From a virus: a stretch of 51,412 nt of DNA. A model generated the notes under the pieces. That model saw only the letters and a list, made by a program, of their open reading frames with translations. It was not told where the DNA came from and ran no database searches. Made by a program: the position numbers and the translations under genes. Below, in pieces: positions 4,891-50,795 of this stretch. The first letter of the stretch is position 1. Every line of letters begins with the position of its first letter. The stretch covers positions 1-51,412 of the IMG/VR virus record IMGVR_UViG_3300046522_000560. The stretch is one strand, 5' to 3'.

Positions 4891-6699
4891 TTAGATAGAA
4901 GATTCAATTGGTTTGTAGAAACCATATCTTCCATAATCTGTAGTGCCAGTAAACTCAACAAAATTAACTTTTTCCTTAACTGCTTCTGGAGGTGAGTCAT
5001 TCTCAATAACTATTATTTGTCCCTTGTATTTATATTCAGCTAACCATAAATAGAAATTATCAGCTACAGAAAGATGAATAGAATCTGTTTTGTCTAATTC
5101 ATCTTTGTTTTTTGGATCTTTATGTGTAACTAAAGGAGAATCGATAATAAGGAAACCTAAATGAGGATGTCCATTCTCTAGAGCATATTGCATAATTGCT
5201 ATAGCATAAGCTGTTAAAAAAATAGCTCTTTTCCCTTTACCATATGAAATTCTTTCACGATGATTTATTTGTAAATCCATTGATTGTTCATCAATAAATA
5301 TCTTTAAATAGGACTCCATTCCCCACTTTTCTAGAAGTTTCATACATATAGATGAGATATCTGAGTATTGAGTTGCTAAATCCCTATTAATCTTAGGCTT
5401 AGAAGATTTACGAGATTGTGCTTGAGAAAGTAATTGATCAATTTCGATTTTTTTATTTATGAAATATTCAGAGTTTTTTAATACAGTGCGTTTTTCAATA
5501 AGTCTATTAATGAAATTAGTATCAATAATGTTATATGTATTTTCTTGATGACTAATATTTTTTTCAATTGATTCTTCATTTAGTAAATAATCAACTTCTA
5601 ACTCTAAAATTTCATCATTTATTGAATTAATAGCTTCTAATAATTGATTTTTTAGATTGGAAATATTCCTATACTCATGTCTTAGATTATTTAAAAAATT
5701 TTCAGTAGATGTTGGTTCTGGTATTTCAGACGAGCATAAAGGACAGGGTACATTATCATAAGAAGATAAAATATTATGAGAATTTAAGGAGGCAGAAATT
5801 CTTTCAAGATCACTATCGTATTTTTTTAATAGAATCTCAAAGCTAACCTTAGTATCTTTTAGGTTATTAATATTTTTTTGAATGAAATCTTCTTTATTTC
5901 TTAAAATATTTAGCTCATAATTTAATTGATTTATTTCCCTTTTTGTAGTGAGGTTAATTTCATTAAACTTTTCAATTTCATGATCAATTTTATCTAGTTG
6001 TTCATAAAGAATTTCTGGTGCCGAAAAATACTCATTATCTATACTATTTTCACTTAGCCAATTATTAATACTAACAATCTCACTTTCATAGACATTAATT
6101 TTACCAACTAGCTGATTTTTTTCATCAGTTGAAGGTGGAAGTATAATATCTGTATCATCATTGCCTGAAAGGCTATAAGCTAAAATAGATTTTTTCTTCG
6201 TATAATCATTTGATTTTTTTAGACCAATTATATGTTCTTGAGATAGAGTTCTATTTTCATTAAAAAAACTCAATGTTTTTAAAGCAGATAATGTTACATT
6301 CGATCTAGTTCCTGCTTTTGTAATTATTTGCTTTTTATCTAATTTAAGTAAATTAACAATAAATTCATTAATCTTCATATCGATAATATTTTTATTATCT
6401 TTGCTAAATTTTTCTTTAAATCCTGAGTAAATATTTTCAACTTTAAAGGCATAGTCACGTACAACGGAGTACTTTTCTCCTTCGAATGAGAAGTTTAAAA
6501 TAAATTTTGTATATCCATTAGAAAGGCCAATATTTCTAGGTATATCGGAACCCCCCAAACAAAAATATAAGCAATCAACTATATAAGATTTTCCGGTATC
6601 GGATGGTCCTTGAATGATTGTATTACTACTATTAAATTTAATTATTGCAGCATCTTTATCTTCACCTTCAACAATTAAACTATCTAAAATTATACTCAT
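4891..6699 (-). CDS. SMC/Rad50-like ABC ATPase of an ABC-3C-type defence system
   Basis: A 602-residue protein. The N-terminus has a Walker A motif GPSDTGKS (31-38). Two long coiled-coil stretches flank a CPLC zinc hook (C319, C322). The C-terminal lobe has a Walker B-like FLIIDSPLV (D520). This is the Rad50/SMC fold in short form, as in the ATPases of ABC-three-component (ABC-3C) systems from comparative genomics. The two genes upstream on the same strand are the matching middle component and nuclease component, with 2-base spacing to this gene. AT-rich compared with the phage core. The ATPase would sense or act on nucleic acid and license the nuclease partner; that mechanism is inference. 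Confidence 0.8.
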   Translation of the reverse strand: MSIILDSLIVEGEDKDAAIIKFNSSNTIIQGPSDTGKSYIVDCLYFCLGGSDIPRNIGLSNGYTKFILNFSFEGEKYSVVRDYAFKVENIYSGFKEKFSKDNKNIIDMKINEFIVNLLKLDKKQIITKAGTRSNVTLSALKTLSFFNENRTLSQEHIIGLKKSNDYTKKKSILAYSLSGNDDTDIILPPSTDEKNQLVGKINVYESEIVSINNWLSENSIDNEYFSAPEILYEQLDKIDHEIEKFNEINLTTKREINQLNYELNILRNKEDFIQKNINNLKDTKVSFEILLKKYDSDLERISASLNSHNILSSYDNVPCPLCSSEIPEPTSTENFLNNLRHEYRNISNLKNQLLEAINSINDEILELEVDYLLNEESIEKNISHQENTYNIIDTNFINRLIEKRTVLKNSEYFINKKIEIDQLLSQAQSRKSSKPKINRDLATQYSDISSICMKLLEKWGMESYLKIFIDEQSMDLQINHRERISYGKGKRAIFLTAYAIAIMQYALENGHPHLGFLIIDSPLVTHKDPKNKDELDKTDSIHLSVADNFYLWLAEYKYKGQIIVIENDSPPEAVKEKVNFVEFTGTTDYGRYGFYKPIESSI

Positions 6700-6701
6700 T
6701 T

Positions 6702-7163
6702 TTAATTTGCCAATTTATCGGTTGAGAGAATTATCTGATATAACTCATTTTCATTTAAATGCCCAAAAATTTCACTGACCTTTTCACATCGTAAAATTAA
6801 TTCATTGTAATATGAATTATCTAGTAAATTGATGAATGAAAAAGCATTTTCTCCTTTTTTGAATGCTATTTGAGCATTGGTTGTGTTCGCATTAATTATA
6901 TTCTTTTTAATCATGTAATTAATTCCATTTTTCAAATTATCAAACCTTAAAAGGAATTCCATTTGATGCATAGGAACTTCTGGATGCAGGCTTGGTATTC
7001 CAGTAAAATTCTTAGAATATATAGACATATAGTCTAAGTAGGCAATTTTGCTTATAGAGGCTTCACTAGGTGAAATTGAATACAAAATGAAACTAGCCCT
7101 TATGCCAAGCTCGATAGGAGTATTATATATTTTCACTTTCCACCCATTTAAGCTTTTCTTCAT
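6702..7163 (-). CDS. ABC-3C middle component
   Basis: A 153-residue protein beginning MKKSLNGWKVKIYNTPIELGIR, the YNTPxExG-R pattern of middle-component proteins of ABC-3C systems, followed by a helical body typical of the family. It overlaps the upstream nuclease gene by 41 bases and is followed 2 bases later by the ATPase gene, so the three are translated together. The middle component is thought to couple the ATPase to the effector; no catalytic motif is visible. Assignment depends on both neighbours as well as the N-terminal motif. Confidence 0.72.
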   Translation of the reverse strand: MKKSLNGWKVKIYNTPIELGIRASFILYSISPSEASISKIAYLDYMSIYSKNFTGIPSLHPEVPMHQMEFLLRFDNLKNGINYMIKKNIINANTTNAQIAFKKGENAFSFINLLDNSYYNELILRCEKVSEIFGHLNENELYQIILSTDKLAN

Positions 7164-8154
7164 TAACTAAATGATGACAGCAGCCTGAAAGATCCCCAGG
7201 TTTTAACCTGTGAGATAAAGGATTATTCGTTAATTGAGACTTATTAGCAAATTGAATAATTTCGGTATGCTTTTCCATATTATCTTTATAAAAATTATAT
7301 AAAATTACTTCAATTGAGACTAATAAATCGTTGAGTAATGTTTCGAAAGCATCAGGAATTCTATCTCTACTAAATCGTTTAAGTCCTTCGGCTGTAAAAA
7401 AAACTTTCCTTTGTGCATTAAGGTGGTTTTTAAACTGCGAAGTGAGTGTTTCCAGGGTATAATTTTGCTTTGTTAAATCATTATATAAATTTAAAAGTTC
7501 ATTAATATAAATTGTTTCTAATTCTGTTGGCTGAGTAGGCATTATAGGATCAGTGCCTCGTAGTGGAAGCTCACCGAAACGCTTCCAATGATTTGGTGAA
7601 GTAGAGTGAATTTCCAATAAATCTTTAGGTATATAATAATCAAATATGGAAAAGTCAAAATTTTCTACATAACTTAAATATTTATCAATATTCGTTTTAA
7701 TTTCATAACCATTTAAGACACCTTTTTTTTCAAATACTTGTTTTTTGAATTGTTTTTTGAACTCTGATTTATTTATAAAACAATCATGTAAAGTTGAACC
7801 GATTTTTAAAGCACATAAATAATATTTTCTCGGTATAGAATATTGTTTAGAAATTACCATATCGAAGAATTTTGCCAATTCTGGGAAAAAGTTACTTTTG
7901 CCCATGGAGGTTGACCTGTAGTATTTAGCCTGATAAAGATCCCAAGAACCATCCTTAATAGCTTCTTGTTCTAAATATGCACATATATCACGACCTTTAT
8001 CACCAGATCCCCCTAATCGGCTAACTTTTACGTATTTTTCTTTTTTTATTAGTTCTCTAATACAATCTTCAATAAAATCTTCCCATTTATCATCATCTAA
8101 TAACAACAATTTCTCTGTCGCTGTTATAGGTAATGGATTTAAATCATATGACAT
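7123..8154 (-). CDS. ABC-3C effector with Mrr-like nuclease domain
   Basis: A 343-residue protein. The N-terminal 150 residues form a restriction-endonuclease-like domain: SRLGGSGDKGRD (catalytic D56), then YQAKYY (Q75, K77), the Mrr/PDDEXK D...QxK pattern. The C-terminal part has the features expected for an ABC-3C C-terminal domain: FTAEGLKRFSRD and the closing GCCHHLVNEEKLKW. In such systems this protein is the toxic effector held by the ATPase and middle component. It starts 22 bases after the CI stop codon on the same strand, so it is probably expressed from the repressor transcript in the lysogen. Confidence 0.8.
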   Translation of the reverse strand: MSYDLNPLPITATEKLLLLDDDKWEDFIEDCIRELIKKEKYVKVSRLGGSGDKGRDICAYLEQEAIKDGSWDLYQAKYYRSTSMGKSNFFPELAKFFDMVISKQYSIPRKYYLCALKIGSTLHDCFINKSEFKKQFKKQVFEKKGVLNGYEIKTNIDKYLSYVENFDFSIFDYYIPKDLLEIHSTSPNHWKRFGELPLRGTDPIMPTQPTELETIYINELLNLYNDLTKQNYTLETLTSQFKNHLNAQRKVFFTAEGLKRFSRDRIPDAFETLLNDLLVSIEVILYNFYKDNMEKHTEIIQFANKSQLTNNPLSHRLKPGDLSGCCHHLVNEEKLKWVESENI

Positions 8155-8176: not shown

Positions 8177-8845
8177 TTATACATCCCGATATAACCCAAC
8201 GACTTTTCCAACCAATTTACATCCTTCACGGAGAGGTATGATCTTTTCATGCCATTTAGGGTTTAAGGGTTCTAAATACATCCCATTGCTTTCTACAATC
8301 AATTTCTTGAAAGTTGCTTCTGTTTCGCCGTCACATGCAACGATAACCAAATCACCTGTTTTTAAATCATTAATTTGAAAGTCAGGATTTACATATATTT
8401 TGTCACTCGGTCTAAAGTCTGGAGCCATTGATTCTCCAACTACAATTAAACCGTAACCATTTTTGCCACATTTAGGGTTTGGTGGTAACCACTCCTTAAA
8501 TTGCGTATCGATTGGAACAGAATCTGCAGTAGTCCATGTTCCTGCTTGTACCCAAGAAATAACTGGTACTAAACGACCTGCTATTGGAAATGGAGCAGTT
8601 ATATTGTTATCTAAAGTTGATAGCTCTATATCTGCATGAACTTGGTCTAGCCAACCATGAGGTTTATTGAAAGCATCTTCAATTTCACGAGCTACTTTGT
8701 TTCCAATTCCTTTAATTGGATTGGTTCCAGCAAATTGACTTGTCTGTGACTGACCCTTATTAATCTTTTCAGCAAAATTAGATACTCCACCAATTTGATC
8801 TACTAAAAGGCGGGTGTTTTTATATCTTATCGTTTTGCTGTCCAT
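8177..8845 (-). CDS. LexA-like CI repressor with S24 autoprotease domain
   Basis: A 222-residue repressor. The N-terminal 65 residues form an HTH domain (LLVDQIGGVSNFAEKINKGQSQTSQ), the C-terminal part an S24 peptidase. The self-cleavage site is A101-G102 (VQAGTW), the catalytic serine S139 in GESMAPD and the lysine K180 in ATFKKL. RecA-stimulated cleavage would trigger induction, as in lambda-like phages. It faces the cro-like gene across about 155 bases holding two copies of the TTACC-A5-GGTAA operator type and a second palindrome. The defence cassette is immediately downstream. Confidence 0.93.
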   Translation of the reverse strand: MDSKTIRYKNTRLLVDQIGGVSNFAEKINKGQSQTSQFAGTNPIKGIGNKVAREIEDAFNKPHGWLDQVHADIELSTLDNNITAPFPIAGRLVPVISWVQAGTWTTADSVPIDTQFKEWLPPNPKCGKNGYGLIVVGESMAPDFRPSDKIYVNPDFQINDLKTGDLVIVACDGETEATFKKLIVESNGMYLEPLNPKWHEKIIPLREGCKLVGKVVGLYRDV

Positions 8846-17892: not shown

Positions 17893-18221
17893 TCTCAATC
17901 TCTGTGCTTATTTCTGTGAATCCTGATCCAGTTGAAGTAACAGACTTGATTGTAGAAATTGGAAAAGATATAGCCGATTTTGCCTCATCTATTCTAGACA
18001 ATATTGATATAAACTTTTGATTTAAAAGTTTTTCAAATACTGCGCTGAAATTTTTTTATGGCCCGTTTCTTTTTTAGACGCGGGTTTTTTATAGAAATTT
18101 TTATTAACTGGAAAAATTAAAGTTAAAATATTTATAAGAAAAAGCTAAAGAAATTTTTACTTCTTTAAGAAATAAAATAAATGTATATTAAATGTTCAAA
18201 AAATTAAAAATGGAAATCACT
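17893..18221. other. Open out-of-frame tail, terminator and leader
   Basis: Contains the possible lost C-terminus of the 17464 gene (to 18020), a terminator hairpin (CCCG ... CGGG plus six Ts at 18061-18090) and the AT-rich leader of the next gene. No other coding signal seen. Confidence 0.5.
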
Positions 18222-19130
18222 ATGAAAAAAATAGCTTTAGGTTTAACTTTAGGCCTGACTAGTATGGGTGCTTGGAGTATTTGTCCATATAATTTTGATG
18301 TTACCCAAGATCAGATTCTAAAAATTTCACCAGTCTCTTCTAATCAGGCTGATGTTTTTCCTGTTATTAGTGGGCAAAAAGTTAGTTTTAAATTAGTGGA
18401 AACCACTAATCCTGGTAAAGGAAAAGGTTACCTTGCTACTAGTAAAGAGTTTGCTAATATTTGGATAGCTGCAATGGCACCAACTACTACAGCGAGCTTA
18501 ACTAATACATATTCAAAATTATTAACCAAAAATAATTTAAAACTATCAGTTAAGAATAATTTGACTTCATCTAATGCTCAAACTGCAACCCAATCTAGTG
18601 TAAATATCTATGGGGATAAAGCTATACCACAAACAGGTATTCTCGCATTTGAGTTCAGATTTAAACTTATTAATCAGCTTACTACAGGTCAGGTGGCAAC
18701 CTTCCCAGTTCCAGTATCAGCTTTTGGTCAAACTCAAAGTGGAGAAACCATTACTTTAGGGGCATTCTATGCTAACAATAGCTCTAATAATGTTTTAAGT
18801 TCTACAGTTGCAACAAATCTGGATATTCTGAATCCAGCCAATCCTATTTATAAAGAATTTATTACTCAGGAAGGCTTTCAGCATATAGGTTTTTATATTA
18901 ATCAGAATAGTCATCAGATTGGATTAATCATTAATGGTACGAATAAAGGTTACATTGCTACGCTTCCTTCGAAATTAAAAAATATTGGTTTTATTATTCC
19001 TTTTGAATATGGCTACATAGAGCCAGAATTCCTGAATAAAGAAATTTCAGCCGAATTAATTACGGAGCGGAGTAAGTTACAGTTTTCATATCCATCAGGC
19101 ACTACAGATATTTGTGGTGTAGCCGTCTAA
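18222..19130 (+). CDS. Secreted DUF4882-like protein
   Basis: A 302-residue protein with signal peptide MKKIALGLTLGLTSMGAWS. Starts 10 codons upstream are possible, but this one gives a normal signal peptide. The mature part begins ICPYNFDVTQ and ends with DICGVAV; two cysteines at the ends may form a disulfide. It is beta-rich and rich in T, S and N. Its overall character matches the DUF4882 family I associate with Acinetobacter; that match is from memory and unchecked. It stands alone between terminators and is probably a lysogenic conversion gene exported to the periplasm or surface. Confidence 0.6.
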   Translation: MKKIALGLTLGLTSMGAWSICPYNFDVTQDQILKISPVSSNQADVFPVISGQKVSFKLVETTNPGKGKGYLATSKEFANIWIAAMAPTTTASLTNTYSKLLTKNNLKLSVKNNLTSSNAQTATQSSVNIYGDKAIPQTGILAFEFRFKLINQLTTGQVATFPVPVSAFGQTQSGETITLGAFYANNSSNNVLSSTVATNLDILNPANPIYKEFITQEGFQHIGFYINQNSHQIGLIINGTNKGYIATLPSKLKNIGFIIPFEYGYIEPEFLNKEISAELITERSKLQFSYPSGTTDICGVAV

Positions 19131-38273: not shown

Positions 38274-38287
38274 ATTTGGGGATAAAA

Positions 38288-40132
38288 ATGCCTTTACCTA
38301 ATGCCGACCAGTTTACAGGTTCAGGGGTTACTGAGCAGGGGTTTAAAACCGCTCAAACCCAACTCATCGAATTTTTAAAAAATGAAGTTCCTTCATCAGA
38401 GTTTGTCGAAGTATCAATTGACAATAGGATGTCAGAACTTAAGGATTTCAATAAAGCTATTGGGCAAGAGATAGTAATTGGATCGACTGATAATACTGAG
38501 GCCACATTAAATAATGTACCTTCAGGAACGTATGTACTAAATAAACCCGCAGCAGCTGGAACAGTAATTCGTAAAATCTCCTTGGTATCTAAGGTTACAA
38601 CTGGAACAGCAACAATTAAGGTTTTCACATTATCAGGTAGTACCTTTAACTTAAACCGAACTGTTGCTACTTTAAGCCTCACTAAAATTGGTTTAAATGA
38701 GCTTGATAACCTGAATATTGCATTAAATGCAGGGGAATATCTTGCATTTTCTGTAACAGCGGGTGGTGTAGTTTCATATGTTCAAAAGTCTACATCCACA
38801 CCATCCTATTATGTGGATTCAAACCCGAACGCTACCTCATTTGCCATTACTTCTAGCAACTCTGGTGCTACTGCAATTTTACAAATTGCCTTCCATATGT
38901 TTCCAAATCTAGAAGGGATCGCTTCCACTTTTACAGATCTTGATAGTAGGATTGATGGAAATACATTTACATTAGATAGTGTTGTGGGCCTTCAAAGATT
39001 TGGGGTTCAGTACAAGCCTGTTTTTGCATCCGGGAATGCAAATATTGCTCAGTGGATTCCAGCAAAAGCTGCGATTAAAGACGGTATCGTGACCAAGTTT
39101 TCAACGTATGCTACTGCTTCAGGTTCTTTACAAGTTGGCGTATATAAAAAGTCAGGAACCCATTTTATACGTCAGCGTTATGTATCGGTAAATGTTGCAG
39201 TAGGCTTAAATGAAATCCCAATTCAATTAGAGTTTAATGTAGGGGAATATATAGGTATAAGAACCTCGGTAGCGGGGCAATCTGTGTATGTTTCCGCAAC
39301 ATCTGGACATGATGGGGTTTATAGCACTACGAGTTTGGCTGATGATGCTGAATACACAACTAATCCAAATATGAGCTATGCCTTCCAGTTCAGTTTTGAG
39401 CAGTTTTATAGCAAGTTGCCTGCTTCCAGTATGTCATCAGATGCTTTTAATCATTGGTTAAATCAGGTCCTAGCAACGTTTGGTGATTCAATTACATGGT
39501 ATTTCCTTCAACAATTTGTTGATTCTCATATTGAACGAGGCCAAACCTGTGAAGGGTACCAATCTGCTGTAAAAGAAATCTTGGGCTGTGTGATCGATAA
39601 TCATGGTCGTTCAGGTTGGACGATGCCACAAATTTACGTAGGTGAAATTAGTTTATTTAATTTTGCAAATACATATGCAACAACAATTACCAGTGGAGCT
39701 AATGACTGCAGAACCGGTGTAGATGTTGGACAAATTGCCCCAATTGGAAGCCAGTTCGATAAAACTACTTATGCGGGTGCATTACAAGCCTCTATTGAAC
39801 ATGTAATCTCATCTAATCCAGCTTGTAAGATCTTCTTAATAACACCTATTCGTGGGTGGTATAACGAGTACAACACATCGAATGTACCCAATACAGATCC
39901 GAATGTCGTCGGGTTAATGAATGAAGCGTACGCCAATATCATGAAAGCTATCGGCAAGCTTTACGGCATTCCTGTTTTAGATTGGTATAACTTAACCGGT
40001 CTAAATGAAAAGAATAAGTTTTACTATCTTGGCGATGATCCAGGCGCATTTACAGCCTATTTGCTCCATCCAAAAAATAAGTTTTTTAGAATAATGGGCA
40101 TCATCCTTGCCAATTTCTTAAAGCAGTACTGA
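38288..40132 (+). CDS. Tail spike with SGNH-esterase domain
   Basis: A 614-residue protein starting MPLPNADQFTGSGVTEQGFKT, a probable virion-anchoring end. Residues about 55-360 contain two similar beta-sandwich-like units (both with KPAAA/IPAKA, GTATIKV or GSLQVGV and LNEL/LNEIPI patterns). Residues 390-614 form an SGNH hydrolase: TFGDSIT (S401), GAND (N472, D473) and LLHP (H594). The usual Asp three residues before the catalytic His is Tyr here. Such domains deacetylate or cleave host polysaccharide, so this is the likely receptor-binding, capsule-modifying spike. It is inserted between the hub and NlpC/P60 genes, flanked by a terminator. Confidence 0.8.
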   Translation: MPLPNADQFTGSGVTEQGFKTAQTQLIEFLKNEVPSSEFVEVSIDNRMSELKDFNKAIGQEIVIGSTDNTEATLNNVPSGTYVLNKPAAAGTVIRKISLVSKVTTGTATIKVFTLSGSTFNLNRTVATLSLTKIGLNELDNLNIALNAGEYLAFSVTAGGVVSYVQKSTSTPSYYVDSNPNATSFAITSSNSGATAILQIAFHMFPNLEGIASTFTDLDSRIDGNTFTLDSVVGLQRFGVQYKPVFASGNANIAQWIPAKAAIKDGIVTKFSTYATASGSLQVGVYKKSGTHFIRQRYVSVNVAVGLNEIPIQLEFNVGEYIGIRTSVAGQSVYVSATSGHDGVYSTTSLADDAEYTTNPNMSYAFQFSFEQFYSKLPASSMSSDAFNHWLNQVLATFGDSITWYFLQQFVDSHIERGQTCEGYQSAVKEILGCVIDNHGRSGWTMPQIYVGEISLFNFANTYATTITSGANDCRTGVDVGQIAPIGSQFDKTTYAGALQASIEHVISSNPACKIFLITPIRGWYNEYNTSNVPNTDPNVVGLMNEAYANIMKAIGKLYGIPVLDWYNLTGLNEKNKFYYLGDDPGAFTAYLLHPKNKFFRIMGIILANFLKQY

Positions 40133-40133
40133 T

Positions 40134-40559
40134 ATGAAAAATATAGAAGCAGTACAAGAGGCGCTTACATGGCTCGGCACTCCTTATCACCACCAAGGCC
40201 GTGTAAAAGGCGTGGGGGTGGACTGTGGCACTTTGATCTGTGAAGTCTACGAAAAAGTAGGCTTAATGGACCATTTAGACCCGCGGCCATATCCACCAGA
40301 CTGGCACATGCACCAGATGGGGCAACGCTATTTGGAACTCATTTTAGGTGTATGCGATCCAGTCGAAGGTCCGCCACAACCGGGTGACATTGTTTTATAT
40401 CATTTCGGCAAGTGTATCAGTCATGGTGCAATTGTCATTGAGTGGCCACAGGTCATTCACAGTTATATCCATCAGGGAGTCATCATTCAGGATGGAACCA
40501 AAGGAAGTTTAGCCCGGCGAATTGCCGGGTTTTTTCGTATGAAGAGGCTGAAAAAATAA
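40134..40559 (+). CDS. NlpC/P60 tail peptidase
   Basis: A 141-residue C40-family enzyme with C31 in GVDCGTL and H97 in ISHGAIV. These tail-tip peptidases (lambda K-like) cut peptidoglycan during DNA entry. It starts 1 base after the spike stop and its stop overlaps the next ATG (TAATG). Confidence 0.9.
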   Translation: MKNIEAVQEALTWLGTPYHHQGRVKGVGVDCGTLICEVYEKVGLMDHLDPRPYPPDWHMHQMGQRYLELILGVCDPVEGPPQPGDIVLYHFGKCISHGAIVIEWPQVIHSYIHQGVIIQDGTKGSLARRIAGFFRMKRLKK

Positions 40560-43048
40560 TGGGTGGATTATTTGGTGGTACTACGATTAGTACAACGGAT
40601 ACCCGTATTAATTCTATGCGTATCCAGCAATCGGCTTATGGGCTTTGTCAGCCTTTGGTTTACGGGAAAACACGTGTAGCGGCCAACATGTTTTGGTACG
40701 GGGATTTCTTGGCAACGCCTCATACGACTGTCACTAAATCTGGTGGTAAGGGTGGTAGCACTAAAACCAGTAACACAACATTTAGTTATAGTGCGTCTCT
40801 TATGCTGGGTTTGTGTGAAAACCAGATTAAGAAGATTGGTCTGATTTGGGTTGATAAGGAGCAATTTGTTTCTAAGCAAGAAGGATCCATTGTTTTAGAT
40901 CCAATTGATCAGCTTAAGTTTGAATTATTCGACGGTAATAGTAACCCGCCTTGGGGTTGGCTAGTTTCAAAACATCCTAATCAGGCAATTAATTATCCCT
41001 ATTTGGGGTATGTGGCAGCAGCTAATTATGAGATGGGAAATAGTGCGAGTCTCTCAAATCATAACTTTGAAGTGATTAGTACAATTACATTGTCGGATAC
41101 TATTGATGATGCTAATCCGGCTGATGTAATTGAAGACTTTATTACGCATCCACGTCATGGAGCCGCACCTAATTTAAATATGGCCGATCTGGAAGAGTTC
41201 CGCACGTATTGCCGTGCAGCTAATCTTCTTATTAGTCCAGCATTCACTGAACAACGCGCAGCTTATGAAACGATTAATGAGATTGTAGAAGCTGTAAATT
41301 GTGCTGTGGTACCAAGTCCAGACGGTTTAAAAATTAGATCTTTTGGAGATTCAGCTATCACTGGTAATGGGATTACTTTTACTCCAGATCTCACACCTGT
41401 TTATCACTTAACTGATGATGATTTTATTAGTGATGATGAGCCTGTGCGAGTACGCCGTAGCCGTGACACTGATGCTTATAATCATGTTCAGATCGAATAC
41501 ATCAATCGATACAATCAGTACAACACAGAAACTACTGAAGCGAAGGACCAAGCAAATATCGAGATGTATGGCTTGCGTACCGAAGATCCAGTAGAAAATC
41601 ATTATTTCTGTGAACCTAAAATAGCCCGTCATGCTGCTCAGCTTCGCTTACAACGATTGCTTTATGTGCGTAATGAATATGAGTTTACTTTGGGGTGGAA
41701 GTACTGCCGTTTAGAGCCAATGGATATTGTCACTATTACTGATGAAGCTTTGGGTTTAAATCAATTCCCTGTACGTATTACACGTATTGAAGAAGATGAG
41801 TTCGGTGAATTAACAATAACAGCAGAAGAGTTGGCCATAGGCTCAAGATCTGCAATTGAATATGATTCACAAGCCTCTAACGGCTATCAAGGCGGAAATG
41901 AAGAACCGGGTAATGTGAATGCACCTGTTATTTTTGAACCTCCACTGGATCTGACAGACGGTAAAAATCAGGTATGGGTTGCGGTGTCTGGTGGCATCAA
42001 TTGGGGTGGCTGTAATGTTTGGGCCAGCCTTGATAATACGACTTATGAAATGATTGGTACCATTTACGGATCAGCACGATATGGCCAATTAGTTACGGCA
42101 GTTGATGCCGATGATACAGCTTTGCAAGTTGAACTCAATACAGTGAGTCAGATCTTTAGCGGCACTTTAGAAGATGCACAAGCCGACCAGACGCTTTGTA
42201 AAGTCGGTGACGAGTATTTCAATTATCAGGTGGCCACTTTAAACGGATCCGGGCTTTATACCTTAAGTGATGTGTTGCGTGGGCGGTTTGATGATGCTGC
42301 GATTCATAACGCGGGTGAGCCATTTGTACGTCTTGATCGGGCTATCTTTGCATATCAGTTCAATGAAAATCTGGTAGATAAACAGATCTTCTTGAAGTTC
42401 ACAAGTTTTAATGGCTTAGAGCGTAAAGAGCAAACATTAGATGAGGTAACGGCATACAGCTATACACTATCTGGTGGACGTCCTGCGGGTGTGAAAGGAC
42501 TGTCACTTCAATCGCCGTTTGTGGGCACCACGTTCAAAGTTCAGTGGCAAAGCTCAACCGGTGCAGATGGCTACCGTGTTCAGGTCTGGTCGAATGGTGC
42601 AATGATTCGTGAGGTTGATACAACCAATACGGATTATAGCTATTCAATTGAAGAGGCCAAAACTGATGGGATAGGCCGTGCTTATACCATTCGTGTAGCC
42701 AGTAAAAACGGCGACCAGATCAGCACGTACGCTGAATTAAGTGTTAGCAATCTGGTACCGCCAGTGCTTCTAAATGTTTATACCTCAGCAACTATTGATT
42801 CAGTCACAGTGACATGGGTACCTAGTGAAGTTCCAGACCTGAAAGACTATGCTGTTTGGCTCAGCAGTACTTCTAATTTTGATCCAACACAAACACCGCC
42901 TTCGTGGACTGGTACAGAATTAACAACCACAATTGGAGGATTACAACCAACAACCCCATATTACATTCGTGTAGCAGCACGGGATGTATGGGAAAACACA
43001 GTCTGGAACTACTCAAATCAGATTAATCAAAGTACTTCTGAAGGTTAA
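40559..43048 (+). CDS. Tail tip/host specificity protein, J-like
   Basis: An 829-residue protein starting MGGLFGGTTISTTDTRINSMR; a longer frame back to 40442 would run inside the NlpC gene. The N-terminal two thirds resembles phage tail tip (phage-tail_3/J core) proteins. The C-terminus holds two fibronectin type III-like repeats, about 665-745 (SPFVGTTFKVQWQSSTGADGYRVQVW) in part and 750-829 (VTVTWVPSEVPDLKDYAVW). It would complete the tail tip and carry the central fibre. Confidence 0.88.
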   Translation: MGGLFGGTTISTTDTRINSMRIQQSAYGLCQPLVYGKTRVAANMFWYGDFLATPHTTVTKSGGKGGSTKTSNTTFSYSASLMLGLCENQIKKIGLIWVDKEQFVSKQEGSIVLDPIDQLKFELFDGNSNPPWGWLVSKHPNQAINYPYLGYVAAANYEMGNSASLSNHNFEVISTITLSDTIDDANPADVIEDFITHPRHGAAPNLNMADLEEFRTYCRAANLLISPAFTEQRAAYETINEIVEAVNCAVVPSPDGLKIRSFGDSAITGNGITFTPDLTPVYHLTDDDFISDDEPVRVRRSRDTDAYNHVQIEYINRYNQYNTETTEAKDQANIEMYGLRTEDPVENHYFCEPKIARHAAQLRLQRLLYVRNEYEFTLGWKYCRLEPMDIVTITDEALGLNQFPVRITRIEEDEFGELTITAEELAIGSRSAIEYDSQASNGYQGGNEEPGNVNAPVIFEPPLDLTDGKNQVWVAVSGGINWGGCNVWASLDNTTYEMIGTIYGSARYGQLVTAVDADDTALQVELNTVSQIFSGTLEDAQADQTLCKVGDEYFNYQVATLNGSGLYTLSDVLRGRFDDAAIHNAGEPFVRLDRAIFAYQFNENLVDKQIFLKFTSFNGLERKEQTLDEVTAYSYTLSGGRPAGVKGLSLQSPFVGTTFKVQWQSSTGADGYRVQVWSNGAMIREVDTTNTDYSYSIEEAKTDGIGRAYTIRVASKNGDQISTYAELSVSNLVPPVLLNVYTSATIDSVTVTWVPSEVPDLKDYAVWLSSTSNFDPTQTPPSWTGTELTTTIGGLQPTTPYYIRVAARDVWENTVWNYSNQINQSTSEG

Positions 43049-43399
43049 TTTATAGCACCCAAACTGGGTGCTTTTATTGAACCCAGAAACAATTTTGTGA
43101 GTTTTTTAACTATATAATAGGCTTTATAAGTTTTTGCTTTTAATATATTGTTTATTATTATAATATTATTTTTATGGTGTTTTATTATAATTAATTTATA
43201 TATTATTATTTAACTTTTTATATTTATTAAAATAATATTATATTAATATTTTGTTTTTTTAAAAAATTGATTTTTATTGGTATTATTTTTAATTTAACAA
43301 TTAGCTACATTTTGTTTCTTTTTTATAGTATTAATTTTATTGCTTGTGTTTAAGTCTTGTTTGGATTTTAAGGATAGCCGATAAAATATAGTTAATAAT
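43049..43399. other. Very AT-rich spacer with terminator
   Basis: A terminator (AGCACCC, 5 bases, GGGTGCT plus Ts, 43054-43075) ends the tail operon. The following 280 bases are extremely AT-rich with runs of TATTATT and ATAAT and no gene. This marks the border of the horizontally acquired polysaccharide genes and probably contains their promoter. Confidence 0.65.
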
Positions 43400-44461
43400 A
43401 TGAAAAGATTTGAATCATTGGATTGGTTGAGAGGTATGATGGCATTTGCGATCATGATTTATCATTTAATCAGTTGGGAGGTTTTTCATCCACAAGCTGG
43501 AAATATTCTAGGAAATTTTGGTATTTATGGTGTTTCAATATTCTTTGTACTTTCTGGTTTGAGTATGGGAATTGTATATAACAACTATATTAAAAATTTT
43601 CATACATCTATTGTATTCTTTATACGTCGCTTGTTTAGACTTTTGCCACTCTTATGGATAGCTATTGCTATTGTTGCAGGGATAGGTTTTATAGTTAATG
43701 ACCAGCTTGATATTTATAAAATCTTTTTGAATGTGACATTATTGTTTGGCTTTGTTGCACCAGCCGAATATATAAATATTGGAGCTTGGAGCATTGGTAA
43801 TGAAACATTCTACTATGCTTTCACACCCTTTCTTATCATGCTGTATGCCCAAAATAAGCAATTAGGTAATTTGGCTGTTTTAGGGCTAATTGCTGTAGGA
43901 ATGTATTTTACTTTCTCTGCTTTAGATCCAAGTAGAACTTTATCAGCTCAGTGGGAAACCTACATTAATCCCTTTAATAATTTCTTCTTATATGCTTGTG
44001 GACTTGCTTTGTATTACAACTTCCATAGTGTAAGCATGAAGAATATAGCGAATGTTCTGGTTGTAATCTCGCTTGCTGTTTTATGCTTGTATCCAGTAGA
44101 TGGTGATCAAATTAATATTACAACTGGTTTCAACCGAATTGTTTTTGCGTTGGCTTCAATTGCTTTAACGCTTGGTTTTTATAAGTTAGAAATTGACCTT
44201 CCTAGCTGGTTTGCTAAACCTTTTGCAAATCTAGGTGAAGCTACATATGGAGTCTATTTATTACACCCAGTCGTCTATATGTTTGTTAACAAATTAGTTT
44301 ATCAACCTATGTTGTGTATAGTTGTTACTTCAATTGCTACAATCGTCATAGCCAATATTTCTTATAGAATTTATGAGAAACCTTTTATCAAGATTGGCAA
44401 AAAAGTGACTACTCAAAAAATGACTTCTCAAGAAGTTAAAAGCATCCAGAACCTCACTTAG
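43400..44461 (+). CDS. Acyltransferase family 3 (OafA-like O-acetyltransferase)
   Basis: A 353-residue integral membrane protein with about ten hydrophobic segments. The start FESLDWLRGMMAFAIMIYHLI carries the family R and catalytic-site H motif (LRG...YH). These enzymes transfer acetyl groups to sugars of capsule or LPS at the inner membrane. Located after the tail genes, it is a lysogenic conversion gene that may alter the phage receptor. Substrate unknown. Confidence 0.85.
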   Translation: MKRFESLDWLRGMMAFAIMIYHLISWEVFHPQAGNILGNFGIYGVSIFFVLSGLSMGIVYNNYIKNFHTSIVFFIRRLFRLLPLLWIAIAIVAGIGFIVNDQLDIYKIFLNVTLLFGFVAPAEYINIGAWSIGNETFYYAFTPFLIMLYAQNKQLGNLAVLGLIAVGMYFTFSALDPSRTLSAQWETYINPFNNFFLYACGLALYYNFHSVSMKNIANVLVVISLAVLCLYPVDGDQINITTGFNRIVFALASIALTLGFYKLEIDLPSWFAKPFANLGEATYGVYLLHPVVYMFVNKLVYQPMLCIVVTSIATIVIANISYRIYEKPFIKIGKKVTTQKMTSQEVKSIQNLT

Positions 44462-44518
44462 TGATATATCTGATGTGAATAGCTTATCTTGGCAAGTTAT
44501 AGAAAAATAGTAGTTAAT

Positions 44519-44546
44519 AGCCTCATTGAGAAAATGGGGCTTTTTT
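44519..44546 (+). terminator. Terminator after the acyltransferase gene
   Basis: GCCTCATT pairs with AATGGGGC (one wobble), then six Ts. Confidence 0.65.
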
Positions 44547-44552
44547 GATCCT

Positions 44553-44596
44553 AATAATAAATAAAAGGATGTGTAGATATCCTTTTATTTATTATT
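44553..44596. terminator. Perfect 18-bp inverted repeat between convergent genes
   Basis: AATAATAAATAAAAGGAT (44553-44570) and ATCCTTTTATTTATTATT (44579-44596) are exact inverse copies around 8 bases. Placed between the convergent acyltransferase and sialidase genes, it suits a bidirectional terminator. Confidence 0.7.
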
Positions 44597-44643
44597 TTAT
44601 ATTTTTAACTAATTTGATATATTAGAGATATATTAAAAAGTTT

Positions 44644-45831
44644 TTATTGGGAAATATTGTCAAGTAACTCTTTTTTATTAAAAATAAATATCCCTACATT
44701 TTCAGAATTATTGAGAATATATTTATTCATTAATCCTTCTACAGCAACGGCATAACTATTTTTGTCTAATTTTATTATTTGTGAATAGCCAATATAAAAA
44801 GATGGAGGAAAAGGTGAATAACTTTTTTCCCAGTTTTTTGTGTCATTAAAACTCAGCTGAATTTTATAGTGATCACGCGCATTTCCGGTTGGGGAGCTAT
44901 GTAAAAAAAACTTATTATCAGCATCATATAAAATTGAAGCCGCAACAGGAGGTGTTATAAGTTCTTTGTTTAAATTTAAATCTTGAATAGTTTCACCACC
45001 ATCAGTGGAAATTGATAATTCTCTATAAGCTTGGTTAGAAGTTCTAGATGAAATAATAATGTGGTTATGTTCATCTAAGGTAATAGAAGGTTCAAAAGGA
45101 ACAGTATAGGTTGGCTTAAATATTTGTCCATATTTCCAAGTTACACCAGAGTTATCAGAATATATCATTCCTATTGCACTTAAATAATCAATGTAATAGA
45201 CAGGACAAACTAAACGACCTGATGGAAGAGTTAAAATAGTGCCAGTAGTACCAAGAGACTGTGTTTTTGCAATAGGGTTATTAGGAATCTCTATTGGTTT
45301 CGTAAAAGTTCTTCCTTCATCACTGGAAAATGCAAGCATAATCTTATAGATCCGATATCCATTTTTCTCTAAAGATGGCTGTCTTACATTAAACATCAAT
45401 ATAATTCTCCCATCTTTAGTTCTACCCAACATGGGTTGTTTAGCAACTCCCTTTAAATCAGGGGATGAGAAAAATAATTCTTTTTTTCCACTATCAATAA
45501 TTTGTCCTTTAGAATTATATTGAAGAATCCTTTTGTATAATTTTGCACCATCAAGATCTCCATCATAGCCTTCAATACCACCACTCCAAAAATATAAAAT
45601 TTGATTACCTTTTAGTTTTAAGATTGACGGGATTCTTTGAATTTCACCTTTTTTACCTGTAAACGCCTCGATTTTAGTAAGTTCTTTGACAGGAATATCA
45701 TCACGAATGCGAGTGTTTGTGGGTATAGCTGTTGCTGATGCTGTTGGGGGTAATGTTTGGTTGACACAAGCGGTTAATGATAAGTTTAAAAATAAACCTA
45801 TTGATATATATGGGTTTAATTTTATTTTCAT
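44644..45831 (-). CDS. Sialidase (BNR-repeat) lipoprotein
   Basis: A 395-residue protein. The signal peptide ends in a lipobox LTAC (C22). The fold is a six-bladed beta-propeller of the exo-sialidase type: QRIPSI (66-70) corresponds to the FRIP motif, and Asp boxes SSDEGRTF, SDNSGVTW and STDGGETI follow. Sialidases remove terminal nonulosonic acids from glycans. Its placement between an acyltransferase and a Wzy-like polymerase points to host surface glycan as target, possibly a sialic-acid-like sugar of capsule. Rare for a prophage; divergent from the polymerase gene. Confidence 0.78.
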   Translation of the reverse strand: MKIKLNPYISIGLFLNLSLTACVNQTLPPTASATAIPTNTRIRDDIPVKELTKIEAFTGKKGEIQRIPSILKLKGNQILYFWSGGIEGYDGDLDGAKLYKRILQYNSKGQIIDSGKKELFFSSPDLKGVAKQPMLGRTKDGRIILMFNVRQPSLEKNGYRIYKIMLAFSSDEGRTFTKPIEIPNNPIAKTQSLGTTGTILTLPSGRLVCPVYYIDYLSAIGMIYSDNSGVTWKYGQIFKPTYTVPFEPSITLDEHNHIIISSRTSNQAYRELSISTDGGETIQDLNLNKELITPPVAASILYDADNKFFLHSSPTGNARDHYKIQLSFNDTKNWEKSYSPFPPSFYIGYSQIIKLDKNSYAVAVEGLMNKYILNNSENVGIFIFNKKELLDNISQ

Positions 45832-46296
45832 TATTTATATCTCCAATACAAGGATGTTTGAAATTTATTTCTAATAAAGTGTAAGTACATTGCTTTAAAT
45901 AAATCTTAAAATGTTTACTTAAACAAGCTGAAGATTGATAGCGCTCAACAAAATTTACCAAGCTCTGACTTTTTAGTACCAAAAATTTAGCATCTAATGG
46001 GTGTTTTTTATTATTCAAGTATCAGATTTTAAGGAAAATAATTTTGAAATATTTAAATAATTAGTTTATTTTATATATGAACAACATAATCTATGTATTT
46101 TTTAATTACCAATAATTTAGCTGTTACACCAATCTTTCAAATTTTGTTTAAGAAATACTCATAATCATCAAATATCTACATATTAGTCACATTTACACAA
46201 TTGGTGAGTGGTTGGACCTTTGTTAAATTAAGTGAAAAAAATAAACGTTCTTGTTAATATACTTAACAATTCAAATAGTCAATTACTCTTGCTTAA
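45832..46296. other. Divergent promoter region between sialidase and Wzy genes
   Basis: 465 AT-rich bases between divergently transcribed genes. No gene with a convincing start is present. It must hold both promoters, but I could not pick unambiguous -35/-10 pairs or a JUMPstart-like element. Confidence 0.5.
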
Positions 46297-47475
46297 ATGA
46301 ACAATAAAGTTTTTCTGTACTTGGCGGTATTCTGTATTTCTATAGATAGTTACTTCCGCTTACGTGGCATAGCCGGCATTGGCTTACTTTTGATTTATCT
46401 TTTGACTATTAAATTTGAGGCTAAATTTAATAAAACTTTACTTGTCCCAACAGTAATCATGTTGGTTGGGTTTATTGTTTATACATGTTTGGCTTTTTTC
46501 TTTCCCAATACATACTTGCAAATTCCTGATGATAGAGATACGTTCTTTTTCAAAATATTAGACCGACTCTCACTAATCATTCTTGCATTGATGATATTTT
46601 GGTCTTTCAACAAGGTTAATTACGCATTAATTCTCAGGAAAGTAGCATTATTTCATATTTTCTATCTATTAATACAGTTCGCACTTTACTATGGAATCGG
46701 ACTGAAATTTGATTTGTTAGGAATGTTTGGCATTGAACAGCGTACATCAATGGATTATAGCGGTTCGACAGTATTCCGGCCTGCTGGACTTTTCTGGGAG
46801 CCATCTAACTTTGCTGCTTATACCTTGGCATTGTATCTACCGTATCTTGTTAAAAATAGTAACTTTAGAAAGAAAGACTTTCTTCTACCAGTTTCAATTA
46901 TTCTGACTTTATCCTCAGCTGCCTTCCTGGTTGGCTCTCTGCTCTTGGTCACAATGTTGCTAAAATCAGGCTTAATTAAGCGACCAAAGATTCTTTTTAC
47001 AGCACTCATTATAGGGTTGCCATTAGTTTATTTTGGCTATAGCTCTCAGAAAGACCGATTCTCAGATGGTGTGTCTGATAACGCTAATACTATTTTACGA
47101 ACTAATTTGGTTGAATACGCTTGGGAATCTCGACTTAATAATCCAGTTCTTTTAATTGGCGGTACAGGCCTATACTCTTACGACCTATACATTTATAAAG
47201 AAGAGCAATATGCATATGGGCGAAATATTGCTTCCATTCAAGATGCTACACTCTTTGTATTTACTTATCTTTTAACAGGGGTAATTGGGCTATTTTTATT
47301 GGTTTTACTTATTTTAAATGTTAAAGGTTTCAGTAATAAACTTTTTGTTTTAACTTTTATGCTTACTAAGATTTCCTTCTTATTTCCAATTTTCTTGTTC
47401 TTTATTTACATGGTTTTTGAAGAAAAGATCAGTAGGCGAAATGCTGAAAAGGTTAAAGTAGAAACAACTACATAA
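46297..47475 (+). CDS. Wzy-like O-antigen/capsule polymerase
   Basis: A 392-residue protein with 10-12 membrane segments and a large hydrophilic loop in the middle (FGIEQRTSMDYSGSTVFRPAGLFWEPSNF), the typical Wzy/O-antigen ligase pattern including RPAGLFWEP. Such enzymes link capsule or O-antigen units in the periplasm. Prophage-borne Wzy genes are known to change or supply the capsule linkage in Acinetobacter (recalled from the literature, not checked here). With the acyltransferase and sialidase it makes a surface-conversion set. Confidence 0.8.
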   Translation: MNNKVFLYLAVFCISIDSYFRLRGIAGIGLLLIYLLTIKFEAKFNKTLLVPTVIMLVGFIVYTCLAFFFPNTYLQIPDDRDTFFFKILDRLSLIILALMIFWSFNKVNYALILRKVALFHIFYLLIQFALYYGIGLKFDLLGMFGIEQRTSMDYSGSTVFRPAGLFWEPSNFAAYTLALYLPYLVKNSNFRKKDFLLPVSIILTLSSAAFLVGSLLLVTMLLKSGLIKRPKILFTALIIGLPLVYFGYSSQKDRFSDGVSDNANTILRTNLVEYAWESRLNNPVLLIGGTGLYSYDLYIYKEEQYAYGRNIASIQDATLFVFTYLLTGVIGLFLLVLLILNVKGFSNKLFVLTFMLTKISFLFPIFLFFIYMVFEEKISRRNAEKVKVETTT

Positions 47476-47495
47476 CCACCTAACCAAGTACACAA

Positions 47496-47519
47496 ACCCT
47501 GCATTCGCGGGGTTTTTTT
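47496..47519 (+). terminator. Rho-independent terminator
   Basis: ACCCTGC ATTC GCGGGGT plus T run after the Wzy gene. Confidence 0.8.
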
Positions 47520-47545
47520 ATTGTCTAAATTTTCTGGAGAAATAA

Positions 47546-47935
47546 ATGGAACCAGTTTCCACAAGCGGTCTAACAGCAATTTTAAAATTTTATGGTGCAG
47601 CAATTATGGTGACATTAGCAGTTGCTTTGGTTGCTGCCGTTGTATTAATGACACGAATGCCACGATCACCTCAAGAATGGGCAGTAGGTCTAATTTGTAC
47701 AGTTGTATCAAGTCTGGCTGGTGGCTCTTTCATTATTGTGAAGTGGGGACTGCATGAATGGGTTACCGATATTTGGGGGATGATTACCTTAGGTGGCTTC
47801 TTCTTTGTATGTGGTTTACCAGGATGGGCTTTGGTCCGCTGGATCTTTAATTTCATAGATAAACAGGAAGGTAAAACGATTGTTGAAGTGATTAAAGAGT
47901 TTAAAAAAGCCAGAAAAGACATCGAAAACAGTTAA
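47546..47935 (+). CDS. Phage holin
   Basis: A 129-residue protein with three hydrophobic segments (FYGAAIMVTLAVALVAAVVL; WAVGLICTVVSSLAGGSFII; MITLGGFFFVCGLPGWALV) and a charged C-terminal tail, matching class-I/LydA-like holins. It lies about 580 bases upstream of the endolysin gene and would time lysis by permeabilising the inner membrane. Confidence 0.75.
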   Translation: MEPVSTSGLTAILKFYGAAIMVTLAVALVAAVVLMTRMPRSPQEWAVGLICTVVSSLAGGSFIIVKWGLHEWVTDIWGMITLGGFFFVCGLPGWALVRWIFNFIDKQEGKTIVEVIKEFKKARKDIENS

Positions 47936-48518: not shown

Positions 48519-49061
48519 ATGAACATCGAACAATATCTTGAGGAACTTATTAAACGCGAAGGTGGTTATGTTAATAACCCGGCGGATCGAGGAGGGGCTA
48601 CTAAATTCGGTATTACTGAAGCAGTTGCCCGAACAAATGGATTTAAAGGCAATATGAAAGACTTGTCGCTTGATGTGGCCAAAGCCATTTATAAAAAACA
48701 GTATTGGACAGCTCCACGATTTGACCAGATAAATTTGATTAACTCTGCTGTGGCAGAAGAACTTCTAGATACAGGTGTGAATTGCGGTACCAGTTTTGCT
48801 AAACCACTTTTACAACGTGCTTTAAACTTGCTGAATAATCAGGGTAAAGGTGGTTGGCCAGATCTTGCGGTTGATGGAATTTACGGGCCAGCCACATTAA
48901 ATGCACTTAAAACATACTTGGCCAAGCGTGGTAAAGATGGGGAAAAGGTTTTGCTGCGTGTACTCAATATCATGCAAGGCCAGCGCTATATTGAAATCTG
49001 TGAACGCAACCCAAGCCAGGAACAATTTTTCTATGGTTGGATCGCCAACCGGATCTCATAG
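48519..49061 (+). CDS. GH108 endolysin (N-acetylmuramidase)
   Basis: A 180-residue enzyme. The N-terminal GH108 catalytic domain has E14 in KREGGYVNN and PADRGGATKFGIT. The C-terminal part (DLAVDGIYGPATLNALKTYL) is the peptidoglycan-binding 3 domain. It hydrolyses murein at lysis. No signal peptide, so it depends on the holin. AAAGGAA precedes the ATG. Confidence 0.93.
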   Translation: MNIEQYLEELIKREGGYVNNPADRGGATKFGITEAVARTNGFKGNMKDLSLDVAKAIYKKQYWTAPRFDQINLINSAVAEELLDTGVNCGTSFAKPLLQRALNLLNNQGKGGWPDLAVDGIYGPATLNALKTYLAKRGKDGEKVLLRVLNIMQGQRYIEICERNPSQEQFFYGWIANRIS

Positions 49062-50414: not shown

Positions 50415-50795
50415 TTATTTATATATAATCAAAATTCCTTCACGTGTAAATGGATTTCTACTAAGTTTATCTCGCGACATCGACCAGTTCCGATTAGGTA
50501 CAAAACAAGGTCCGACACTAATTTTTTTCTTTCCAAATTTACTATGGATACCATCCATAGCTTTCATCAAACATTCCTTTTTCTCTATGTGCTCAAAGTC
50601 AGTTAAGAGGTCATAAGTGTGGCCAGATTTTGGCTCTAAACCTGTCAGCACAACACCACACTTCTTATATTTAATCCCTTCTTTATAGATATCGTTCAAC
50701 ATTCTTGTTGCTGCTTTTACGAAGTCTAAAGCGCAATCAGTAGGCTCAAACAGATGAATTCTATCTTTTGCGATTGGTTCATAGTTTGAGCACAT
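50415..50795 (-). pseudogene. Chimeric SRAP-start/UmuC C-terminal remnant
   Basis: A 126-residue frame. The first residues MCSNYEPIA resemble the start of SRAP/YedK proteins, including the catalytic Cys2. From about residue 18 it is the C-terminus of UmuC/DinP-type polymerase V (PTDCALDFVKAATRMLNDIY, YKKCGVVLTGLEP), ending in DUF4113 (SMSRDKLSRNPFTREGI). Both parent families belong to DNA damage response. The polymerase catalytic part is missing, so it cannot synthesise DNA. It is probably a deletion fusion of an SRAP-UmuC locus, though the intact frame leaves open a small binding protein. Confidence 0.68.

Follow-up and report, generated by a model that had tools for sequence, protein, structure and literature searches.

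Prophage acetylases and polymerases are already known to convert capsules. In Acinetobacter baumannii, the 42,249-base prophage contig of strain NIPH 329 carries atr29 at 39593-40639, and 4-O-acetylation has been described for the pseudaminic acid (Pse) derivative Pse5Ac7Ac (~75%) of the K46 capsule of NIPH 329 and for the legionaminic acid (Leg) derivative Leg5Ac7Ac of K5, the precise role of Atr29 and Atr30 being still to be confirmed according to that paper (PMC6586298). The prophage polymerases include Wzy2Ph (XLO29423.1), a 392-aa Wzy_C protein, and Wzy1Ph, of 347 aa and the EpsG family; by what means such genes supplant the capsule form of the host is posed as an open question in the same work (PMC13228068). 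A GDSL-like tailspike deacetylase of A. baumannii (PMC11126041) and, from the prophage of ATCC 19606, a putative exo-sialidase flanked by a GDSL protein and a C40 peptidase and classed under lysis (PMC7760358) have also been reported. Here, we analyzed the IMG/VR virus record IMGVR_UViG_3300046522_000560, a stretch of 51,412 bases without host sequence (referred to as the window), in which three genes for an O-acyltransferase (Oac), a sialidase with a lipoprotein signal (Sia), and a putative Wzy_C-type polymerase (Wzy) lie between a tail gene and the lysis genes. Sia is nested in our tree among the sialidase domains of phage tail proteins and is likely to descend from them.

A lipobox-bearing sialidase and its kin among tail proteins

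Sia (395 aa; 44644..45831, minus strand) matched Pfam BNR_2 with 65.2 bits (cut-off, 31.4) and consists of a signal (residues 1 to 22) ending in LTAC at residues 19 to 22, a linker (ca. 23 to 50), and a six-bladed propeller (ca. 52 to 395). By a pattern match and not a trained predictor, LTAC was located within the first 45 residues in all three Sia proteins available, whereas a scan of 25 further sialidase-type proteins (23 tail and 2 cellular) with the same pattern detected no lipobox. The AlphaFold model, built from 6 sequences (pLDDT 71.6, pTM 0.78), matched exo-sialidases (Foldseek E value of 4e-17), and with VIA-align its residues 52 to 393 gave a Z of 37.8, with an rmsd of 2.6 over 330 residues, to Streptococcus pneumoniae NanA and a Z of 37.8 also to human Neu2. 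E247, R263, R319, and Y349 align with the same residues of the Bacteroides enzyme 4bbw and are invariant in alignments A2 (5 rows) and A4 (7 rows), at identities of 23 to 47%; D92 is invariant in A4 and in A6 (4 rows), and R66 in A6 and in the A2 rows that reach that position. The tail sialidase of contig L052 is split over two frames, and its frame begins just past the position of R66. We take R66, R263, and R319 to be the arginine triad of the active site and the Asp, Glu, and Tyr to have their usual roles there. The Asp-box match (BNR, PF02012) fell under the cut-off with an E value of 0.038, and the motifs SSDEGRTF and STDGGETI were spotted by eye. By the fold of the model and its active-site residues, Sia is a predicted GH33-type exo-sialidase, which would hydrolyze sialosides or nonulosonic acid glycosides.

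Relatives of Sia were few. It was present in two further IMG/VR contigs, L003 (the same contig as L056) and L004 (the same as L049 and L058), whose identity to the window is 98 and 96%, in a scan that detects close relatives only, and a further scan for kin of the lipoproteins and of the tail protein of contig L168 returned only these two contigs and that of L168 itself. Neither the protein nor the sialidase profile A4 gave a match in 175 genomes of Acinetobacter species, in a search without a positive control; Pfam BNR_2 matched in 2 of the 175 (one over the cut-off; proteins read by eye) and in 5 of 14 control genomes. No relatives were found among 19 candidate stretches of genome contigs, 369 genomes sampled across the class gave two weak matches (22 and 30%), and a plasmid search gave a single one, in Phocaeicola (27%). 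An earlier note on this DNA had called a lipid-anchored sialidase unusual, which agrees with these counts. It had also named a lack of active-site residues as evidence against its reading, an objection that falls because the residues are present. With only three contigs, two of them close to the window, the domain might have been captured from a tail by chance and have no specific role; however, Sia is under purifying selection (dN/dS of 0.09 to 0.12 in three pairs) and both the lipobox and the active site are intact in 3/3, which makes chance capture highly improbable. On the residues and these dN/dS values, a dead sialidase was rejected.

The closest relative detected for Sia was a 759-aa tailspike-like protein of L168, matched in its C-terminal half (47% over 381 aa). 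Behind the gene of this protein come a small gene and then an Oac gene (69%). The N terminus of this protein is common to the tailspike-like protein of L046 (43% over 171 aa), and the T7-tail domain scored under the cut-off in both. In a tree of 27 sialidase domains, from which L151 was omitted for its broken frame, the three lipoproteins were nested among tail proteins, joining first the L168 tailspike domain (support 96/95) and then the L141/L145 tails (96/98), and the AU test rejected the 22 tails as a separate clade (p 0.0015). These tail sialidases, whose virion role is judged from gene position and N termini, bear many different N termini, one of which matches the GDSL tail protein of the window in 17/31 N-terminal residues. 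Thus, as far as sequence comparison tells, the sialidase domain is a movable part, placed here behind a lipoprotein signal instead of a virion anchor. By its position, the exo-sialidase of the ATCC 19606 prophage is probably a tail protein too. Evolution from tail to lipoprotein is the likely direction, and two points count against it: rooting relies on two cellular outgroups that are very distant and long-branched, because of which we call the direction likely and not proven, and without the outgroups the lipoproteins are merely one side of a branch and no direction is given.

This ancestry also bears on the idea that Sia serves the fitness of the lysogen by removing sialic acids from mucins or cell glycans, for adhesion or as a food source. 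Sialidases from mucosal bacteria are among the best structural matches of Sia; however, its closest detected relative is a phage tailspike, genes for capsule acetylation are linked to those of its tail relatives (see below), and no catabolic gene was seen beside Sia, so that we regard glycan trimming as rather improbable.

Three separable modules in one slot

The left border of the slot is a J-like host-specificity tail gene (40559..43048, plus strand), whose relatives are annotated "host specificity protein," and its right border is a small holin-like gene (47546..47935, plus strand) so labeled by position only and assigned to PHROG 1024, a family of unknown function. Behind it lies the endolysin (GH108 by Pfam; 48519..49061, plus strand). 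All three reading frames were confirmed between the borders, with Oac (43400..44461) and Wzy (46297..47475) on the plus strand and Sia opposed to both neighbors. Their GC contents of 33.1% (Oac), 31.4% (Sia), and 33.8% (Wzy), against 42.4% in both the preceding tail gene and the endolysin, bear out the description in the earlier note of three AT-rich genes between tail and lysis modules (31 to 34% versus 42%).

The J-like protein had relatives in 241 viral contigs, and the best 80 of these (77 to 97% identity) were used to map the slot. The right border gene was detected in 60 of them (not in the other 20), and 56 of the 60 had a gap of 59 to 81 bp, i.e., an empty slot; in one such contig (L055) the blastn alignment jumps from 43052 to 47532 of the window. 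The slot was filled in 4/60, not counting the window: L056 and L058 with Sia/Wzy cargo, L068 with a gene for 437 aa without a Pfam match, and L106 with an exported beta-helix gene. Counts of J, Oac, and sialidase genes here and below come from IMG/VR contigs and include near-copies (L081, and L080, which is the contig of L169); the sialidases of L170 and L171 are identical.

Blastn break points delimit the cargo. The Oac module (43053..44541, plus strand) is missing en bloc from L003, which has Sia and Wzy, and the Sia module (44411..45997, minus strand, edges approximate) is missing from L052 (the same contig as L044), which has Oac and Wzy. Contig L053, with frameshifts in J and Oac, has Oac alone, so that the combinations seen are Oac alone, Oac plus Wzy, Sia plus Wzy, and all three. 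Hairpins sit at the module ends: terminator-like ones on the plus strand after the tail gene (43054..43072, z of -3.9), after Oac (44519..44541, z of -3.0), and after Wzy (47494..47515, z of -4.4), and on the minus strand, after Sia, an 18-pair hairpin with A/T arms (44553..44596, z of -7.4), as good as which none of 200 shuffles was. A phage moron is an extra gene that is missing from relatives at the same site and has an odd GC content, its own terminator, and its own promoter. Given the empty slots in relatives, the odd GC, the separate hairpins, and the opposite strand, the three genes are three independent modules, separately inserted, and probably morons. A single operon was rejected for the opposite strands and the separability of the modules. 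Of the earlier note, the enzyme types, the rarity of the sialidase, and the active site stand, and what is not supported is one conversion set giving complete receptor replacement, since the modules occur in varied combinations. The note mentions neither the reverse orientation of Sia nor the separate insertion of the genes, and it does not touch on the relationship of Sia to tail sialidases or on the location of such tail genes next to the same acyltransferase family.

As the slot adjoins the lysis genes, Sia could, in the manner of influenza neuraminidase, help new virions to escape from the debris of the capsule at lysis. This is very unlikely, given that Sia is encoded on the minus strand, opposite to the late genes, and has a hairpin at its 3' side, that a lipid anchor would hold it to the cell, and that the tail enzyme of this phage is not a sialidase. 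This tail protein (38276..40132, plus strand) has a GDSL esterase domain (Lipase_GDSL_2) and on the map occupies the position where some relatives have a tail sialidase.

The beta-helix gene of L106 (11551-12537, opposite to J) encodes a polysaccharide-lyase-like protein of 328 aa with a signal-like N terminus. Pfam Beta_helix was below the cut-off and PHROG 14824 (unknown function) matched with 541 bits; the model (pLDDT 74.7) matched AlgE4, the polysaccharide lyase RbmB, and, lower, the Fri1 tailspike 6c72 (E values of 1e-6 to 9e-5, TM of 0.4 to 0.6), and tblastn gave 25 to 35% matches in phages, some of them annotated as tail spike. The gene is also found in L200 to L206. In 7/7 contigs including L106 (98 to 100% identity) it is flanked by J and the small border gene and runs on the opposite strand, and a 51% relative in L207 (4291-5415) adjoins, on the opposite strand, a Wzy_C gene that scored 46.6 bits, over the cut-off. 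A tail origin of the beta-helix gene is thus suggested by sequence and fold matches, and the L207 copy is the only one seen beside a Wzy gene. Since Sia and this gene, which are unrelated, occupy the same kind of slot, such sites appear to have acquired exported glycan enzymes on at least two occasions. There are hints here of a wider pattern, of which the Sia lipoprotein would be one case and the beta-helix gene an independent second one. Temperate phages of Acinetobacter may repeatedly convert tail-spike enzymes into secreted or lipid-anchored enzymes of the lysogen, encoded against the direction of the late genes and paired with a phage capsule polymerase, so that the lysogen digests its old surface and builds a new one. 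We put this forward tentatively, as possible but on balance doubtful.

Predicted acetylation and polymerization and a proposed change of the lysogen surface

Oac (353 aa) matched Acyl_transf_3 in Pfam with 90.8 bits (cut-off, 31) and the "O-acetyltransferase" PHROG at 1.6e-66; Pfam and PHROG matches support the assignment of the three genes as acyltransferase, sialidase, and Wzy made in the earlier note. The best tblastn segment was 77% identical to a gene starting at 39593 in L167 (the same contig as L139), the 42,249-base contig 2529293005_000001, which we take to be the NIPH 329 prophage because contig size and atr29 start coincide. Identity to the copies in L051 and L050 was 80 to 83%, and the L051 frame has the 1,020 bp stated for SDF atr30, a match on that figure alone. 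Judged by sequence, Oac belongs to the Atr29/Atr30 family and is predicted to 4-O-acetylate nonulosonic acid (NulO), a sialic-acid-like sugar; its dN/dS was 0.25 (one pair).

The Oac family was found in 12 IMG/VR contigs, 11 of which also have a sialidase (9/10 with near-copies counted once), of tail type in 10 and lipoprotein in one (L049); the sole exception, L053, has a GDSL tail. In the 10 contigs with a tail sialidase, Oac starts 0.95 to 1.06 kb after the sialidase match, with one gene of ca. 300 aa in between where inspected (L050, L051, L052, and L168). Among these 10, Oac is reduced to a 5' remnant in L052, which has an additional whole copy in the slot, and in L169, L081, L170, and L171, a sign of repeated gain and loss. 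The remnants behind the tail sialidase genes lie at 4380-4451 in L052, 8066-8476 in L080, 5202-5612 in L081, and 8001-8081 in L170/L171. Among the 80 J contigs only 7 have a sialidase, 3/3 of those with Oac versus 4/77 without (Fisher p 0.0004, a value that ignores that L080 and L081 are near-copies and comes from a sialidase HMM built partly from the same loci). In L167, the match to NIPH 329, a tail sialidase lies just upstream of atr29. Neu4,5Ac2 is largely resistant to bacterial sialidases (PMC8319020), and therefore 4-O-acetylation in the lysogen would plausibly blunt a sialidase tail.

The Oac profile matched in 47 of the 175 Acinetobacter genomes, five of them with a whole close relative (E value of 1e-137 or better) and one more with a relative in pieces. 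The five lie between pgm-like and galE-like genes (names by eye). NeuB occurs in 4/5 of these genomes and in 0/3 others tried, at varied sites: in the same capsule locus (G070, L197), a second neighboring cluster (G138), another contig (G123), or ca. 35 kb off (G166). As its location varies and it is absent from one of the genomes, capsule-locus neighbors were rejected as proof of a NulO substrate, and the co-occurrence of NeuB lends that substrate weak support. Genome G138 (L198, L199) has two tandem capsule-type clusters (by eye), with NeuB in the second.

Wzy (392 aa) resembles Wzy2Ph in length and putative family, by sequence features; an identity as Wzy1Ph was rejected, that protein having 347 aa and belonging to the EpsG family. 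Copies within this phage type and in L046 are 88 to 99.5% identical, matches extend to residue 369 in L047 and 343 in L048, and dN/dS was 0.05 to 0.06 (10 pairs). In L046 the gene is located downstream of the tailspike-like gene and upstream of genes that look lysis-like by eye. The 175 Acinetobacter genomes gave one match, a 125-aa piece; in one Acinetobacter genome (L054, 1489-1875) a 72% relative ends after ca. 125 aa beside an IS3-type element (type by eye). Against the phage set, tblastn gave no match for either Oac or Wzy.

Put together, the three conversion genes could jointly remove or disguise a receptor sugar and so exclude competing phages, with Sia as a receptor-removing enzyme of the lysogen surface that originated in a tail. 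This is our preferred reading, with a case that we consider evenly balanced, and for it we infer a NulO substrate, an outer-membrane location, expression in the lysogen, and exclusion. Oac would O-acetylate NulO residues incompletely during capsule synthesis, and Wzy would join the capsule units by a different bond. Sia, as a tail-spike sialidase domain whose virion anchor was swapped for a lipoprotein signal, would be exported, tethered to the outer membrane, and strip the terminal NulO left unmodified by Oac. With the receptor sugar removed or disguised, phages whose tails recognize or cleave it would be kept out. Each gene alone would be partly protective, which suits their mix-and-match occurrence.

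Several observations weigh against this joint action. Oac should shield NulO from Sia if both meet the same residue, and Sia must then act on the remainder. We know of no GH33-type enzyme that cuts Pse or Leg, and the position of D92 has no Asp in L051 (alignment A2). The tails of 3/3 phages with the Sia lipoprotein are of the GDSL type and not sialidases, and Sia is therefore not matched to its own virion. Genome G126 has a capsule-locus relative of Oac (59%) and no NeuB, because of which the Oac family may, on sequence grounds, also use other sugars. The Wzy_C match (E value of 5.7e-5, 23.4 bits) is below the cut-off of 31.7, and promoter-like sites were not above shuffles (29 found versus 26.2 expected).

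Sia adjoins Wzy in 3/3 contigs that have it, and in L207 an exported beta-helix gene runs opposite to its Wzy_C neighbor, an arrangement that would suit a different role, in which the secreted enzyme erases the capsule form made by the host polymerase and only the polymer of the phage Wzy is left. This role would account for the loss of the host Wzy product in lysogens, whose suppression is posed as an open question (PMC13228068). However, an exo-sialidase cuts terminal residues and would not depolymerize a chain unless NulO were in the backbone, and Wzy occurs without Sia in L052 and in L046 to L048; such a polymer swap appears somewhat unlikely.

Phage context and comparison with known systems

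The phage is temperate, with an integrase (1666-2928) and a CI-type repressor (8177-8845), and the right part of the window is partly similar to Acinetobacter phages (41/41 matching records, with 73 to 90% DNA identity in those listed). Beside the repressor, on the minus strand (4891-8154), PADLOC and Pfam ABC-3C parts identified a full Lamassu-type defense system, made up of LmuB (4891-6699), LmuC (6702-7163), and LmuA (7123-8154, with a weak Mrr-like match), so that the prophage seems to defend its host intracellularly as well as at the surface. A DUF4882 protein in the early region (18192-19127) is 31% like a gene that in L004, L052, and other contigs comes behind the lysis border gene. At the right end (50415-50795) lies the C-terminal part of a UmuC-type polymerase, possibly near the integration border.

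No tail-derived sialidase acting as a lysogen lipoprotein was found in print, most subscription journals being outside the search, and PMC13228068 contains no occurrence of sialidase or neuraminidase. If the proposal is true, the host capsule form would be displaced in a new manner, through an enzyme of tail origin displayed on the lysogen, and the receptor-cutting tool of a phage would become a lasting receptor-removing one. It would also offer a reason for the presence of Atr29-type genes behind tail sialidases, as the lysogen gene would alter the sugar read by the tail enzyme. The prediction extends to phage resistance and genome-based capsule typing and is relevant to capsule-specific phage therapy.

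Among the known systems, the closest in sequence to Sia are the tail sialidases of Acinetobacter prophages (e.g., MD-2021a; L050, L167, and L168), which share the catalytic domain (23 to 47% identity) and the active-site residues but have other, virion-type N termini, whereas Sia has a signal peptide and a lipobox. Ltp of TP-J34 is a prophage-encoded superinfection-exclusion lipoprotein (PMC3952083). It is located at the host surface, as is predicted for Sia. Ltp is presumably not an enzyme, whereas Sia is a putative glycosidase of likely tail origin with a predicted role in exclusion. The earlier note was right that prophage O-acetyltransferases and Wzy polymerases are known, relatives of both being tied to capsule changes (PMC6586298, PMC13228068). 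Wzy2Ph, like the window Wzy, is a prophage protein of 392 aa, and it is of the Wzy_C type, to which the window protein is tentatively assigned; it is encoded near the prophage end with a depolymerase gene, as relatives of the window Wzy follow a tailspike; however, it belongs to another prophage type, and the two are likened by length and putative family and not by sequence identity (PMC13228068). Atr29 and Atr30 of A. baumannii are prophage borne and of the same family as Oac (77 to 83% identity to the matched loci), with reported 4-O-acetylation of capsule Pse or Leg (PMC6586298), whereas in the window Oac occupies the slot between J and the lysis genes, accompanied by a lipoprotein sialidase in place of the tail sialidase.

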